A stretch of DNA of 64,000 nucleotides, taken from NCBI RefSeq assembly GCF_009389715.1, contig NC_052400.1, positions 19,375,674-19,439,673 of the forward strand, in the 5' to 3' direction. This stretch comes from Phoenix dactylifera (taxonomy: Eukaryota > Streptophyta > Magnoliopsida > Arecales > Arecaceae). Below, one piece after another: positions 1,737 through 62,414 of the stretch. Position 1 is the stretch's first letter. The number at the start of each line of letters is the position of its first letter. The notes under the pieces are model-generated. The model worked only from the letters and a program-made list of their open reading frames with translations. It did not search any database and was not told the DNA's origin. The position numbers and the translations under genes are program-made.

Positions 1737-3201
1737 GTGGAAGAGACGAGGCCGGCGCCATCTAACCTGGAGTCACCGAGCAAGCCCTTCACCAAGATGT
1801 TCCGCATCCGCCGCCGCCGGGACGCCACCGGCTCCGTCGGAGGCAGCGGTAATGGTGTCGTCCCGGGCAAAGATAGGCCAATCATGGAGAAGCTCAAGCT
1901 CTCAGGAAAACCTCAGAGACTACTTCTCCGCCATGCCCTCCGAGCCTCACAAAGGCGAGGATGAGAAGCAGCAGCAGCAGCACTCGCAGAAGAAGCTGTC
2001 CTCCAAGGATAAAGAGGCGATGGAATCCCTCCTCGCCAACCTCTTCGCCAGCATCTCCGCCATCAAGGCCGCCTACGCCCAGCTCCAGGTGGCTCAGTCC
2101 CCCTACGATCCCGACTCCATCCAGTCCGCTGACCAGGCCGTGGTCTCCGAGCTCAAGCACCTCTCCGTCCTCAAGCAGTCCTACCTCAGCAAGCAGCTCC
2201 AATCCACCGCTCCACCGGTCTCCCAGCCGGCCCTGGAGGCCCGGAACCAGGAGCAGCGCAGCCTCCTCAAGACCTACCAGATCACCACCAAGAAGCTCGA
2301 GGCCGAGCTCCAGCTCAGGGACTCCGACATCCTCTCCCTCCAAGCCCAGCTCCAAGCCCTGGAGAAGCAGAACCGAGCCCTCGACGCCAGGCTCCACCCG
2401 GGCCGCTCGCTGTCCGCGCTCGACGACCTCCACCTCTCCGGGCTGAACCCCACCCATTTCCTCACCGCGCTGCGGTACACCGTGAAATCGATCCGGTGCT
2501 TCGTCAAGCTGATGGTTAAGGAGATGGAATCAGCCGGGTGGGACCTTGACGCCGCGGCCGGATCCATCCAGCCCGACGTACTTCGCCGGAAGCCCAGCCA
2601 CCGGATCTTCGCCTTCGAATCATTCGTCTGCCAGAAAATGTTCTCCGACTTCCATCGCCGGGACTTCAATCTTAGCTCCTTGGCAGACCGATCCACTTGG
2701 GACCGGCGCCGGTTCTTCGACGAGTTCACCGAGCTCAAATTCGTGAAAATAAAGCAGGCTTTCGAAGGGGGAACCCAAAAGTCGGCGTTGGGGAAGTTCA
2801 TAAGGGCGAAGTATTTGGCCCTGGTCCACCCGAAGATGGAGGCGTCGTTCGTTGGTAGTCTGGAGCAGAGGGCGCTGGTGAGCTCGGGGCAGGGGTTCCC
2901 GGTGTCGGCGTTCTTCTCCGGCTTCGCGGAGATGGCGAGGCGCGTGTGGCTCCTCCACTGCCTCTTCTTCTCGTTCGGGCCGGGGGAGGGGTCCATCTTC
3001 CAGGCCCGGCAGGGCTGCCGGTTCTCGGAGGTTTACATGGAGAGCGTGGCGGAGGAGGAGGACGACGACGACGACGCTGCCGGACTGAGGCCCCCCACCG
3101 TGGGGTTCACGGTGGTCCCCGGTTTCCGGGTGGGGAAGACGCTGATACAGTGTAAAGTCTCCATCGCATCATCTGCGCCTCAGATGGGTGGGCGGTCATG
3201 A
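1737..3201 (+). CDS. IRKI/GIL1-type DUF641 protein (N-terminus split over two frames)
   Basis: Intronless gene of the plant-specific family that includes GRAVITROPIC IN THE LIGHT 1 and IRK-interacting protein; members act in light/gravity signalling or bind receptor kinases (family knowledge). The frame opening at 1852 (449 codons) carries the body: the DUF641 block from about codon 55 (MESLLANLF…, then AAYAQLQVAQSPYDPDSIQ), a coiled coil at about codons 128–182, an acidic EEEDDDDD run, and the family C-terminus GFTVVPGFRVGKTLIQC. The expected family N-terminus (MEETRPAPSNLESPSKPFTK, then a basic RIRRRR patch) instead starts at 1737 in another frame, which ends at 1964. The switch lies near 1890–1900 and needs one extra base or two missing bases. 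Either the assembly has an indel, the gene is mutated, or translation starts at 1852 (AATGG context). The conserved body is open to the stop. Confidence 0.85.
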
Positions 3202-18400: not shown

Positions 18401-19141
18401 GGCTCGCGTTTAGAAGTGTCTATGCGGGCGTCCGGAAGATGGTCTCGACACGTCGGAGGATTTCTAGAAGCGACCCCACCGGTGACAGAGATCTCATGCA
18501 ATCATCTAGAAGTCTGTCCGCGTGCATAGCTTTCACACGAGCACTTGGAAAGATAAGCAGGACAAGAAAAAGGAAAGTTTGTCGTTTTTTGAGAGCATTG
18601 GGACCCGATTTACAAGACGAGGGCACATCTTTATCAGCAAACAAAATTTTTCTCTTCTCTTTTTAGAACTTTATTTTCTTTGCTCTTTCTAATATTTATA
18701 TAAAATACCTCATAAAAAGATAATGATGGAATATAGTGTTAATAATGTTAGATATACTGCATGCTTAGTTTTCATGCTTGTTAAAGGTTTCTATAAAAAC
18801 ATTAAAAGTGTTGTTATTTTAGATAAAAAAATAAATTATGATACATTGGATAATAGGTTAAATGTAAAATAGGTATTGTTTGGACTAAGAGTACCAAATT
18901 TTAATCCTTACCTCGTATAATTACACAAACAAGCATCATGTCTGAAAAAAAATGCATCAAATTACTAACTTGTGCCAACACACGTTGGTTTGATGTTGTT
19001 AGTAGTTTCAAGAACAAGGTTATTTGATATTGTTAGTAGTTTCAAGAATAAGGTTATCTTTGCCTGCATCAAATTCAAATGTAAAATTTCTATGTTGCTA
19101 AAATAACTCTATAATTTTATATCATTTCTTGTGCAAATATT
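15462..19141. other. intergenic
   Basis: No gene recognised. At ~17031 'taggggtggcaatttt' resembles the end of a hAT- or MULE-type element, followed by ~600 bases with 'cgaaccgg/gacccg' words, but I could not place the opposite end. A 129-codon frame at 18277–18666 lies in moderately GC-rich sequence and matches nothing known to me. Confidence 0.4.
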
Positions 19142-19150
19142 CTTATCTTT
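19142..19150. repeat. target-site duplication, left copy
   Basis: CTTATCTTT immediately before the left inverted end. An identical 9-mer follows the right end at 20048–20056. Nine bases is the length typical of Mutator-like elements. Confidence 0.9.
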
Positions 19151-20047
19151 GGGTGGTTCTATATACACCCCCCCTATTGCTCAGGACACCCCCCAAAAAT
19201 TAAAAAAAAATTAAATACTCTCTACACCCCCCCCATTTGCCAAGGACACCCCTAAAAAATTAAAAATTCCTAAATTACCCCCCACCCTCCCCACCCTCTC
19301 ACCTAAATTGCTCTCTACACCCCCCAAACCCCCCCCCACCCCGCTCTTCCCCTCCAAAACACCCGCCGGCTTCTCCCTTCCGCCCAAAAAACATCGCCTC
19401 AAGCACCTCGCCGGCGGCCAAACCCCCTCCGTCTCCCTTTGAACTGTTCCGCCCAAAGCACCTCGCCAACGCCCAAAACCCCCCCGTTCCCCCTTCTCCC
19501 TCTCGTCGCCGGCATTCTGTTCGGCTGCACAGAGCCGGACAGAACCCTTTTGTTCGGCTGCACAGTGCCGGACAGAAGCCTTCTGTTCGGCACTGTGCAG
19601 CCGAACAGAAGAGTTCGGTTGAGGGTTGCCGAACAGAAGGCTTCTGTTCGGCACTGTTCAGCCGAACAGAAGCCTTTTGTTCGGTGATCCAGTGCCGAAC
19701 GGAGCACGAACCGTGAAAAAAAAAAAAAATTCGAAACAAGGTGGAACACGTACCTTTGCGGCCGATTCTTCGTCCCAAATCACTAGTTGCTTGTCCATGC
19801 TTCGAATGGGGCTTAAATCTCCTTCAAAGATCGCCTAAACGATGTAAATGGATCGAGGGGTTTAAGGGGGGTTTGAGAGGTGTTTTTTTTTTTCTTTTCA
19901 AAACGAAACGGAGAAGGAGGAAGGGGGGGTGTACTGTGAAAATTTCAAGGGCAATATGGTAATTACACTAAAGGTTAGTTTGGGTATTTTTTTTTTGGTT
20001 TTTGGGGGGTGTCCTTAGCAATAGGGGGGGTGTATATAGAACCACCC
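19151..20047. mobile_element. non-autonomous Mutator-like element (MULE)
   Basis: An 897-bp element bounded by inverted repeats of about 50 bp. The left end starts GGGTGGTTCTATATACACCC. The reverse complement of the right end is the same, apart from one clear mismatch over the first ~45 bases (GCTCAGG versus GCTAAGG). The perfect 9-bp target duplication identifies the MULE superfamily. Inside the left end the 'caccccc…gacacccc' block is repeated at ~19220 and ~19313. The centre is GC-rich, unlike the AT-rich flanks, and has long but repetitive open frames; no transposase is present. The near-identical ends suggest fairly recent insertion. The GC-rich interior could be captured host DNA (Pack-MULE), but I recognise no parent gene. 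Confidence 0.9.
19515..19703. repeat. array of six short hairpin units inside the MULE
   Basis: Six tandem units of ~28–31 bases each begin (T)TGTTCGGC-like and end GCCGAACAGAA-like, with a 7–12-base loop. They lie near 19515–19544, 19549–19577, 19581–19610, 19611–19639, 19642–19671 and 19676–19703. Because each unit is itself an inverted repeat, the array reads nearly the same on both strands. It also gives repeated peptides in several frames (AEQKASVR, LLFGTVQPNR). Confidence 0.9.
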
Positions 20048-20056
20048 CTTATCTTT
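20048..20056. repeat. target-site duplication, right copy
   Basis: CTTATCTTT directly after the right inverted end, identical to 19142–19150. Confidence 0.9.
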
Positions 20057-21283
20057 TGTTTTGTTAGCAGTTTTTAGCCTAGCTTGGAGTCAAGGTCAAA
20101 TAACTTTAGAGGAGCTAGGAGGGCTGTTGGCTTGCTACTTGTGCCTTAACTTGGGCAAGCCGCCCCGATGGCATCATCATGGTGTTCTCCAAGTCCAGCT
20201 CGACTTGATCCGAGAGTAGTTCAAGTTTGAGTTGGAGCGAAGAGATAGTTGTTCTCCCCCGTTAGATTATTGAACGATAGTAGATCATCTAGATAATATA
20301 GGTCTATTCGTCTTGTACAATTCCATTTTTTCCATGTGATTTGGTCAATTGCGTCAGTTTTTAACTCTTAGCATATACAAAGTACATTTAAGATTCCATT
20401 AGCCTCTATTGATAATTTTCTAGGCTAACTATGCATTATGTTTTTTGAGTTGTAATTGGGAGATTCGTATATTAACCATAATGAAGCACCAAATAATAGT
20501 TCAAGTTGGCCTCTCTCTTTTTGAGGATTTGGGAAAATATAATAAGAGACAAACGGTGAATATTACATGAATAACCCCTCGGCATATTTGTTCAAGCCCA
20601 TGCTAAATTGCACCTGAATTTGCATCAAATTTTGATGAATCGTACAAAATCAAGCATACATCATACTGAATAACACTAACCTATGCATTGTTGAACCTCG
20701 ACAACCACATAAGCCCTACCACATTGTTAATGCTGAAATCTTAGGACTCCCGAGAATTTGACTATAGTACTTGCTTAACTACGAGGATGAATGCTATCTT
20801 GAAACTATTGCTCGCATTGCAGCTAGCAATATATAATATTAGAGAATTTGACCATAGTACATGCTTAACTACGAGGAGGAATGCAATCTCGAAACTATTG
20901 CTTGCATTGCAGCTAGCAATATATAAGATTAATCTTAGAAGTCCATTTCAAATTTGTGCTTGGCATGTTTAAAAATAATGCTACCTTGCACGCTAATTAA
21001 TTCTTAGACATTGAAGTGGGAAATTAAATGTGTCTAAGTTAATCAAAATGGAGTTTATTATGGGCAACTATGATTGTGTCCGGTTCAACCCTAGACCGAA
21101 GAGAATCTTAGCTGACCACAACTTCCAAACATTTTGACCGGATTTTCAGAGCCCAAGCCAAGAGCACTTTCCCGTTTCACCCGCATCGGCTTTCCGGCAT
21201 CTGGCTTGACGGCAACTGGCTTAACCTTAACGCTAACTCCTCCGACCTGGCGCCCGGCTCCTACCAAGAAGCCACCGCGGAGG
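20057..21283. other. intergenic, upstream of the Cys-cluster gene
   Basis: No gene seen apart from the 90-bp tandem duplication listed next. From ~21130 the sequence is GC-richer and is in frame with the downstream exon. It is either leader or an N-terminal extension. Confidence 0.5.
20752..20932. repeat. 90-bp tandem duplication
   Basis: Two adjacent copies (20752–20841 and 20842–20932) run from GAGAATTTGAC to TAGCAATATATAA. They differ at only a handful of positions. Confidence 0.9.
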
Positions 21284-24200
21284 ATGGTCTTCGTGGCAGC
21301 CCTCCGCTCCATTAATCTCCACGGCTTTCTCCTCCACCACAAGGCCGCTTCTCTCCAACTCCTACGACACCCTCTCCTCGATCCCCTCAATCCTTCCCCA
21401 AACCCCAATTCTAGGGTTTCCAATCCTTCTTCCCGGCTATTCTCCCCTCCAAGAACATTCTCCTCACCCGCGGCCCAAGAAATCGACTCGGATTCCTCCA
21501 CCCTCTATTCCAATCCCCAGAACGCCGAATCCACGGACCTTGAATCGAAGCCCAGAAGCCTGTATTCGATCTTCGCGAAGCCCTCGGTGGTTCCAGGGGT
21601 CAAAAAGCTTCCACCAGTACCAGATGGGATCTCCAAGAAGGAGAGGCGGGTGCCCGTATATGGTTCTTCTAGGTATCGGCCGATGGAAGAGAAGGAGTTC
21701 CCCAAAGAACTCTCCCCGGAGGTGCTGTCGCTTGTGAGCCGCTTGGAAGAGGAGGGGTACCTAAAAGACGCAAATTTCTCCCGAGAAGGCCCATTGGATC
21801 CCAAGGATATCCCGTCCACCTTATATTCTCGCCATTTCCTGAAATCAGCTGCGGAGAAGTTCGGTCAAGATCACCAAGAAATTGCGAAGTAAGCAATCTT
21901 CATGATACCTTCACTCTTTGAGTTGTATGTTTATTTCCTGACTGTTATCAATATCCTTGAATTGAATGGTGTGACTCGCAGGACGACGCTATTTTGTGAA
22001 GAGTGTAGAGTTCTCTGGAGAAATCCAGAGTTCTTTTAGACCACTATAGATTTTTCCAGAACGTTTTCCTAGATATATATATATTTTTTTTGGGAATATC
22101 TTGTATCTACATTGTTTTATCTGTTGGATGGACAAGAGGGGAGCGGTTCTCATATGTAACCCAACTCTCTAAAATTGTGGTGCTCACCACTTCTATAGTG
22201 AATACCTATGTTCTATTCATCCATTCTGCTTTCTCGCTATTTTAATCTCCTACTAACCTAAGTTTTAAGGATTGGGTTCGGAGTTGCTAAGGGAATGGCA
22301 TGCTTGCCCAAGTTCTAAGGGTTAAGTTCTAAGTTGAGGGAGTGGCACAAGTCTAATGAAGATATAGCACAAGAGGAAAGGCTAAATCGGCTACATGGAA
22401 TTAATTTGGGTTCCTCATGGACTTTGGACAATGCAAAAATCATAAGTCTGTGATATAGCGAACAACATGGGTTAGATGAAGACGAAGTTATAAAATGTAA
22501 AATTATGGTAGATAATAATAGATCCGTCCCATTTTATTCATGGAGAAGTAAAAAAGGATGATATTTCAGCCAGGTCTAAAGTGCTGAAAAAAATCAAGTT
22601 AGATAGAACCAGAACCACACTTTTATGATGTATATTAGTTTATTATTTTTAAGATATATGAAGATTTACATTGTTCTTTTGCATTCCATTTCAAGTCTAC
22701 TTTTTGTTGGGCTTGGAGTTGATTCAAAGATGACGAGTCCAACATATTGAATTCAGAAACCATATTGGATGCTGCCTTTGATTATAATGTAAGTTTTACC
22801 TGGATGTCTTTTGTCCATGAATTTTGCTAGCAGTCTCTTGATTGGAGATAGCCTATATTAATCATGTTTTTTATGATATGAGGCATGATAAATGTGTTGG
22901 ACCTTTTATCTTGTTGCTACCTTCTGGGCCATGTGAAATCAACTAAACATTGAGAATCATGTGAATACGCCTCTTGCTGCATCGGTCTTGAAAGTTTGTT
23001 CGCTATTCTAGCTGTTTGGTTTCTGAAATACTTTTAACTTGTTTGAGTTTGCCTAGTGACATATTGACAAAAATGCATGTCTCCATATTTGTTTCTCGGA
23101 AGCCGATTCAATTGCATCTTGTCTCAAATGTCAATATGTTCCAATCATGTCTTTTTAGGCTTGCAAACTCTTTCTCTTCATGGTTGTCCAGAAGGCTGTC
23201 AACTATGCATCCATAAGCCTGAAGTGTGATTCTTGTATAGGATATGCATGAAGTCTTTAGTTACAGATTTTCCCATTATTATGGTCCTTAGTGACCGTAT
23301 TTTTTAGTTTATCCTCATAGGTTGGAAAGAATAATTTTCCAACTTCCTAAGTTGGTGAATGGTTAAGTTTGATCATTAGGTGTCATGCATCTTTTTTTTT
23401 TATAATCAGTTTGTGAAATTTTAACATCTTGCCATCACAAGCAGATTTGAGAACCCAATCTTCCCTTTATTCTCTCGTGAAATCTGAAAAATTGGTGGGA
23501 TATGAACTGCTTGATGGTTTTCATTGATCCTAGATGCCAATTTGGCCGATCTGCACGTGTATATAAGTTTAGATATCTGTCAGACAATGATGGGTCAGTC
23601 CTCACTTGTCTTGTTTCTTTTAATAAAATATCTAAGGATTTCTTGGGCCTGTACATGGAAACAATTACGCTTGTCCAAGAGTCCCTGGCTTAAGTTACAT
23701 TACTCAAAATAAACATCCATGAAGGCATCTTCTCGTTACCCGTTTCACTCAAAAAATTTTCTAATCTTTAGCAATTTCACTAGGCCTGCCTGATAATGAA
23801 TGCTGCTTGGGAAGCTTATTATGGGTTGGTGTCCTTCGTACTTTATAACCTGTCTCAGCACACTAGAAGATAATCATATTTTCCATATGAACAACTAAAA
23901 GGGAAGTTTATAGATGAATCTTCATTTATCTTGAAGGAGCTCCTAGAAGAGTTGATACATGCTATAAGAATACAAAATGACTTAAAAAGTTTAGTGCTCC
24001 CACTGGTGATAACAACTTTCTTTGTTACCCTTCTGCTGTTCTTCAGTATTTTCAGCAAGCATCTAGCAGTGGACTGATTGAACCTGGTCGAGTCGAAAGG
24101 CATTAACAACAATTTGTTATTACAGTTCATTTGATTGTCTTGGTTATATACAAGCTAGTAGCTTCTAGGGATCTTTGCAAAATTCATATTCTTAGCGGGT

Positions 24201-58859: not shown

Positions 58860-59295
58860 TTGAAATGCCTGCTCGGATTGCTGTGCTCGGACTGGTTTGC
58901 TCAGATGAACAGATATGCTTGGAATAATGAGTCCGACCTAAAAGCAGAAGAGAAAACACCAAAAGTCATCGAACTTTGTCCGGTGGGGGATCCTCTAATG
59001 CCTAAGTAAGGATTTTGGGGAATAGTGGAGGCTTGAGAGAAAGCAAGAGTATATTATTAGCGTCAGAGTAAGCGTGTGTGTATCTAGAGGTCCTCTAGGT
59101 GTTGTTTTGATAAAATGAGAGACGATGTCCATTATTGAGAAAGGTAGACATGCGTCTTAACTGCTCGGCAATCCTCGCATGTTATGCACATCGCTAGGCC
59201 TAACTGCATGGGATGTGCATTCGAGGGCCGAGCTATAACGACCGCCTATTGGTCGGCTTGATTAGGTTAGCAATGGTCGGATCCGAGGTGTATCA
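58860..59295 (-). repeat. 3' LTR (left copy)
   Basis: Aligns with the right copy from about 58866 to the shared end GTGTATCA at 59295. The outer ~40 bases of the right copy have no match here, so this copy looks shortened at its left end. Confidence 0.8.
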
Positions 59296-61879: not shown

Positions 61880-62414
61880 CCCGATCAAGCTAGATGAGCT
61901 GGCGAATGGTGATTGGTGAGTCCTTCTTGGATTGGTATGCTTGGACTGTTCTGCTCGGACGGACAAATTTGCTCAAAGTAATGAGTCTGACCTGAAAATA
62001 GAAGAGAAAAACACCAAAGGTTGCTGGACTTTGTTCGGCGGGGGACCCTTCGATGCTTATTAGGCAAGAATTTTGGAGAATAGTGGAGGCTTGAGAGAAA
62101 ACAAGAGTATATTATCAATGTTAGAGTAAGCATGTGTGTACTTGAAGATCCCCCAGGTGTTATTTATATAGAATGAGGGTCGGTGTCCATTATTGAGAAA
62201 GACAAACGTGCACCTTAGCTGCTTGGTGATCGCCTACACGTTGCGCATGTCGTTGGGATTAATTGTGCGGGACATGTGCTCGAGGGTCGAGTTGTAATTG
62301 CTGCCCGTTGGACGAGCTTTAAGTGGCTTTATGGCACTTTTAGTGGAGGCCACTTGGCGAGCTTCTATTGGTCGGCTTAATTAGGTCAGCAACAGTTGGA
62401 TCCAAGGTGTATCA
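61880..62414 (-). repeat. 5' LTR (right copy)
   Basis: Homologous to 58860–59295; shared landmarks are GAATAGTGGAGGCTTGAGAG, then AAGAGTATATTAT and GGTGTATCA. The inner boundary is approximate and was set by the primer-binding-like sequence. Confidence 0.75.

Follow-up and report, generated by a model that had tools for sequence, protein, structure and literature searches.

An internal array of tandem palindromes in a non-autonomous Mutator-like element as a probable source of hairpin small RNAs

Within a 64-kb stretch of DNA (64,000 nucleotides, hereafter the window), we find six small palindromes lying in tandem inside a non-autonomous Mutator-like element (MULE), and we consider it probable that this array is a source of hairpin-derived small RNAs. 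Its family most likely gives rise to siRNAs or young-miRNA-like products that act on the family itself. Close counterparts of the array sequence are present among small RNAs published for date palm, and these, together with the predicted folding of the array, form the core of the evidence.

The array is embedded in an element of 897 bp, delimited as follows.

19151..20047, no strand assigned: non-autonomous Mutator-like element, 897 bp, with 63-bp TIRs and a perfect 9-bp target-site duplication (TSD)
19151..19213, plus strand: left TIR, starting GGGTGGTTCTATATACACCCC, 59/63 identical to the reverse complement of 19985–20047
19985..20047, minus strand: right TIR, with a TATATA motif that could serve as a minus-strand promoter
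19142..19150, no strand assigned: left TSD CTTATCTTT, 9/9 the same as the right
20048..20056, no strand assigned: right TSD CTTATCTTT, 9/9 the same as the left

A target-site duplication of 9–11 bp is a criterion of the Mutator-like superfamily. The element has a 9-bp TSD and long, 63-bp TIRs, a structure that identifies it as a MULE; the placement of the array inside such an element, as given in the original prediction, is therefore borne out by the TIRs (59/63) and by CTTATCTTT on both sides. Six of the eight element ORFs of at least 60 aa were scanned for a MuDR/MULE transposase without any Pfam domain above cut-off, and on this basis the element is read as non-autonomous, a kind of copy in which the absence of a transposase is expected. 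Neither the TIR nor the array has a second copy within the 64-kb window. The TATATA motif is present in both TIRs and, as a sign of the transcript strand, is only suggestive.

Several further repeats were seen in and around the element. The left TIR has its inner part duplicated in tandem (19164–19206 and 19223–19266, 86% alike), and self-comparison gave no counterpart of this second copy at the right end of the element. The interval from the left TIR to the array contains a C-rich direct repeat of 46 nt (19395–19495, 78%), possibly captured sequence. Outside the element, two 34-bp tandem copies (18989–19057, 94%) are found ~85 bp beyond the left TSD, and two 90-bp tandem copies (20752–20931, 92%) between the element and an ORF at 21116–21892. 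Farther away, the frame at 1738–3201, in which DUF641 is joined by a GIL1/IRKI C-terminal domain, represents a plant gene and marks the window as plant nuclear DNA, and a dispersed direct repeat (58868–59295 and 61922–62414, two pieces 78% and 88% alike, ~3 kb apart) is perhaps a duplicated gene or element.

The array itself consists of six palindromic units of 30 nt at 19515–19704, each with 11-nt arms and an 8-nt loop.

19515..19544, no strand assigned: unit U1, loop TGCACAGA
19548..19577, no strand assigned: unit U2, loop TGCACAGT
19581..19610, no strand assigned: unit U3, loop ACTGTGCA, the exact inverse of the U2 loop
about 19613..19638, no strand assigned: unit U4, loop TGAGGGTT, 5′ arm without its first ~4 nt
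19642..19671, no strand assigned: unit U5, loop ACTGTTCA, one base off the U3 loop
19675..19704, no strand assigned: unit U6, loop GATCCAGT

Six near-palindromic units of ~30 bases side by side had been claimed from the outset, and the delimitation of U1–U6 agrees with this. The units follow one another with a period of mostly 33 nt, the exception being the step from U3 to U4, which is 28 nt (a 5-nt shortfall). Comparison of the loops likewise upheld the presence of three loop types: a TGCACAGT-like loop in U1 and U2 that is inverted in U3 and U5, TGAGGGTT in U4 and GATCCAGT in U6. The stems had been described as perfect, which holds for U3 and U5 and fails for U1, U2, U4 and U6, which together have eight G.U pairs on the plus-strand RNA, with four more unpaired positions at the truncated arm of U4. 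The 11-bp arm motif TTCTGTTCGGC occurs in 12 copies (one truncated) of alternating orientation, separated by gaps of 8 and 3 bp. A 61-nt direct repeat (84%) within the array indicates that units were duplicated as pairs.

Folding the array as RNA, a check suggested with the original prediction, gave the multi-hairpin structure that had been envisaged. The MFE was −149.1 on the plus strand versus a shuffle mean of −68.8 (z −17.5) and −122.7 on the minus strand versus −62.3 (z −13.3), with 0/200 shuffles as good in either case; the predicted folding is thus far beyond chance on both strands. Because loops lie in opposite orientations, neighbouring units are predicted to pair with one another, giving two hairpins of ~30 bp, a feature absent from the original prediction, and the predicted plus-strand fold comprises these two stems and a 12-bp hairpin formed by U1.

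19547..19611, no strand assigned: hairpin A, U2 paired with U3, 31-bp stem and 3-nt loop on the plus RNA; mismatches interrupt it on the minus RNA
19623..19690, no strand assigned: hairpin B, U4 3′ arm, U5 and U6 5′ arm (U4–U6), 30-bp stem and 8-nt loop on the plus RNA

The unrestricted plus fold reached −146.8 kcal/mol versus −106.5 with a pairing span of ≤34 nt, a limit that permits single-unit hairpins only. This arrangement of the plus-strand array was kept when the whole element was folded, and the whole-element fold was somewhat better on the minus strand (−433.1 versus −409.7 on plus). With its two predicted stems of ~30 bp, the array has the hairpin precursor expected of a plant MIR gene. 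Membership in an Rfam miRNA family was rejected: there were no matches at gathering score in the window, and at a lax threshold the region 19100–20100 gave 30 matches, the best with an E of 1.5e-07; all fell short of the gathering score and most were spread over a variety of miRNA families, which we read as a generic hairpin score.

The strongest external evidence comes from a study that sequenced small RNAs of date palm under salt and lists novel miRNAs in its Table 3 (PMC4633500). This table holds 40 rows in 20 5p/3p pairs, with 38 distinct sequences, all of which were compared with both strands of the whole window. Six of the 38 matched at 0, 1, 1, 1, 1 and 3 mismatches, and all six fall in the array, within 19546–19703.

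19661..19681, minus strand: pda-5p-131814, exact 21/21 match (PMC4633500, Table 3)
19683..19703, minus strand: pda-5p-58294, 20/21 match (PMC4633500, Table 3)
19556..19576, minus strand: pda-3p-21009 (2653 reads), 20/21 match; equal match on plus at 19643–19663
19589..19612, minus strand: pda-5p-367016, 23/24 match; equal match on plus at 19546–19569
19634..19655, plus strand: pda-3p-231836, 21/22 match; the minus site consistent with hairpin B (19646–19625) has 2 mismatches
19671..19694, plus strand: pda-3p-224491, 21/24 match (PMC4633500, Table 3)

The remaining 32/38 sequences need 5–10 mismatches anywhere in the window, which is the range of their own shuffles (20 each; mean 4.8–9.3, best single 3). 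Among 12,000 shuffles of the six matching RNAs, none came within 3 mismatches of 19480–19760 and the best had 4. Three functions had been offered for the array in the original prediction, namely a multi-hairpin RNA, a seed for small RNAs and an array of protein-binding sites; of these, the small-RNA seed has gained independent support from six of 38 sequences at 0–3 mismatches with the other 32 at 5 or more. The same matches contradict, at the level of the family, the circumstance under which the array was to be dismissed as a neutral local expansion, that is, a unit occurring only here and without small RNA.

The six small RNAs make up three complete 5p/3p pairs: 367016/21009 (pair 1), 58294/224491 (pair 2) and 131814/231836 (pair 3). 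A loop is included in four of the six, and all four loops are identical to a window loop at 8/8 positions (U2 or inverted U3, U5, U6 and inverted U6); the loops of U1 and U4 have no exact counterpart among the six. Pairs 1 and 3 lie in correct 5′–3′ order on the two long hairpins of the minus strand (1+1 and 0+2 mismatches, respectively), and pair 1 is in order on the plus strand too (1+2 mismatches). Judging from these alignments, hairpin A is likely the equivalent of the date-palm 5p-367016/3p-21009 precursor, and hairpin B on the minus strand likely that of the 5p-131814/3p-231836 precursor. Pair 2 has no corresponding hairpin in the window copy; it would need an inverted pair of U6-type units, which is absent here, so the date-palm array is presumably arranged differently. 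These small RNAs belong to a separate dataset and probably represent other copies of the array; just one of the six is an exact match. The matches suggest that the window derives from a palm or a close relative.

In PMC4633500, these small RNAs were assigned to hairpin precursors and annotated as miRNAs. Its main text, searched for one identifier per pair, contains each only once, in the table, and its passages on 'transpos' or 'repeat' name no transposon origin for the three pairs; they state in general terms that 24-nt RNAs may derive from repeats and transposons. The sizes of the six are 21, 21, 21, 22, 24 and 24 nt; their published read counts, ranked separately from high to low, are 2653, 439, 82, 68, 41 and 24. 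Pair 1 is dominated by 21009, a 21-nt RNA with a 5′-U that accounts for 2653 of 2677 pair reads (99%) versus 24 for its partner 367016, which looks like precise processing; by the published counts, such dominance is weaker in pair 2 (439 and 82) and pair 3 (68 and 41). On the minus-strand hairpins of the window, the partners are offset by 10 and 7 nt in pair 1 and by 7 and 6 nt in pair 3, and neither pair forms a miRNA/miRNA* duplex with 2-nt 3′ overhangs there. Offsets of 6–10 nt, where a Dicer duplex would show 2-nt overhangs, make the miRNA label doubtful. The mixture of 21, 22 and 24 nt fits the early stage described for TE-derived MIR genes, in which mixed siRNAs are produced from a perfect hairpin and a true miRNA appears only later (PMC10004981).

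All six small RNAs were up in salt-treated leaf (3.5- to 11-fold); we nevertheless claim no role in salt response, as the median leaf change was 5.4-fold among them and 4.5-fold among the remaining 34 rows of the table (p 0.45). A 10-mer, TCTGTTCGGC, and nothing more, is common to an array arm and to small RNAs of fennel and Acacia. These look like miR858 (one so named, the other by resemblance), a miRNA that targets MYB genes, and the match is probably a coincidence. A sea-cucumber literature match was also set aside. Literature searches returned no match for a 21-mer of the TIR or for longer DNA motifs of the array, and a joint query for MULE, hairpin and siRNA matched nothing with all terms together; for the longer RNA motifs, the match was the date-palm study (PMC4633500).

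Evidence for the strand of an array transcript conflicts. Outside the truncated arm of U4, 8/8 non-Watson–Crick pairs are G.U on the plus RNA and none is A.C, a bias that favours a plus transcript (two-sided p 0.008 if the eight are independent) and that is weak when shared changes are counted once (5/5 by hand count, p 0.06). Of the six date-palm sequences, 131814 fits minus better (0 mismatches, against 1 on plus), as does 58294 (1 against 5); 224491 (3 on plus, 4 on minus) and 231836 (1 and 2) fit plus better, and both members of pair 1 fit either strand equally. Our first reading of the G.U bias, as RNA constraint on the plus strand, was dropped because the small-RNA matches are split between strands. 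On the minus strand, a speculative feature precedes the array.

19754..19798, minus strand: possible first exon, beginning ATG, 15 codons, ending at a donor-like GTACGTG

A course of events consistent with these observations would begin with one 30-nt palindromic unit that was tandemly duplicated and inverted to form the array. A transcript of the window copy, if made, would fold into two long stems of ~30 bp and a small hairpin, and Dicer-like enzymes may then cut the stems into RNAs of 21, 22 and 24 nt. These would act on the element's own family through RNA-directed DNA methylation (RdDM) and transcript cleavage, a situation that would resemble the early phase of the siRNA-to-miRNA transition that has been put forward for TE-derived MIR genes.

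The most serious rival, which we regard as possible if somewhat doubtful, is a neutral palindromic minisatellite, which would have grown from a chance palindrome by replication slippage and hairpin extrusion, with any small RNAs as by-products of silencing that have no selected function. It can accommodate the small RNAs as such and overlaps with the preferred reading, since hairpin small RNAs could arise unselected, so that the likelihoods of the two are not expected to add up to one. The visible duplication of a unit pair (61-nt copies, 84% alike) and the truncation of U4 are both in keeping with it, and the mixed 21/22/24-nt sizes and the pairs that are without 2-nt overhangs on the window hairpins fit general repeat silencing. 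Against it, arms are more constant than loops: 8/128 arm positions differ from consensus versus 11/48 in loops (all six units; Fisher p 0.0045), and 5/40 versus 9/16 in U4 and U6, the two with the most divergent loops (p 0.0014), although the signal comes mostly from U4 (p 0.0045 alone, versus 0.16 for U6) and the p values are optimistic, as the tests omit the U4 deletion and compare units that share ancestry through duplication. The concentration of 2653/2677 reads of the best pair in one 21-nt 5′-U species exceeds the precision that bulk repeat siRNA would lead one to expect, and the preservation of three loop sequences in date-palm small RNAs also speaks against neutrality.

A protein-binding array, in which inverted pairs of TTCTGTTCGGC are bound by an element-encoded or host protein that shields the family from silencing, is improbable. 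The regular alternation of the motif and the conservation of arms over loops would suit such an array, and there is precedent in TnpA of Spm, which binds repeated motifs. VANC target motifs offer another, being short motifs repeated in tandem in the noncoding parts of VANDAL elements, which are of Mutator type like the element described here; these target-repeat regions are also RdDM targets (PMC5735166, PMC10398659). The VANC motifs YAGTATTAY and AGTTGTCC/AGTTGTAC differ by eye from the array unit, the portions of both papers considered here report no palindromic units, and 'palindrom' and 'inverted' have 0 occurrences in the main text of PMC5735166. In addition, no protein gene was recognised among the six scanned ORFs of the 897-bp element, and protein binding does not predict the exact preservation of loops in small RNAs. 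That the array codes for a protein repeat of 11 residues, one repeat per 33-nt period, is extremely improbable: the period is divisible by three and open frames cross the array on both strands, but tested frames gave no Pfam match above cut-off, and U1–U3 are out of frame with U4–U6 owing to the 5-nt shortfall at U4.

Patterns resembling the unit were also sought outside plants. At least 118 bacterial or archaeal and 103 viral stretches matched the unit pattern, none of them with the TIR (≤3 mismatches), and none of the 36 loci with at least two relaxed units among the matches listed had the 33-nt spacing; viral contigs contained 0 matches to the TIR and inter-unit patterns. With no TIR and no 33-nt spacing, we read these matches as chance.

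The proposed hairpin source of small RNAs inside a MULE has relatives among known systems. Mu killer, a hairpin that silences maize Mutator in trans, reportedly carries inverted MULE sequence and yields siRNAs that silence the family, as proposed for the array; it is said to have arisen from an autonomous element by duplication and rearrangement, whereas the array lies in a non-autonomous copy. The siRNA and MIR hairpins derived from MITEs and other TEs (PMC10004981) are alike in that a short non-autonomous DNA transposon gives a self-folding RNA and RNAs of 21, 22 or 24 nt, but their stem comes from long self-complementary arms of the element, whereas the window array has internal tandem small palindromes that permit alternative pairing registers and can accommodate several different small RNAs. 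The MuTAnT MULEs of Medicago (PMC4486113) are likewise short and can form a hairpin, but from 144-bp TIRs rather than an internal array, and they target TA microsatellites. Closest are the date-palm pairs (PMC4633500), at 0–3 mismatches, with the same loops and two pairs in the same minus-strand hairpin order; they differ in being annotated as miRNAs and in the inverted U6 pair that the 58294/224491 precursor would need. The internal palindrome array, as opposed to folded terminal repeats, is best read as a new variation on the known TE-to-small-RNA theme.

A bolder reading, which we hold to be unlikely, is that palms and their relatives harbour a MULE family with a maintained, polycistronic-like small-RNA cassette, in which alternative pairing of palindromes would give several 21–24-nt RNAs, the stems would be under selection, and silencing of the own family or of host genes would be tuned. 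More immediately, the matches point to a possible transposon source for 3 of the 20 5p/3p 'novel miRNA' pairs in the date-palm Table 3 (PMC4633500), including the entry ranked second in summed reads among its 40 rows. This has a bearing on the true number of transposon hairpin siRNAs among lineage-specific plant miRNAs. Should the array prove to move with its TIR family, the copies would differ naturally in their number of hairpins, type of loop and register of pairing, and comparing them may then reveal how an siRNA hairpin develops step by step into a MIR gene.
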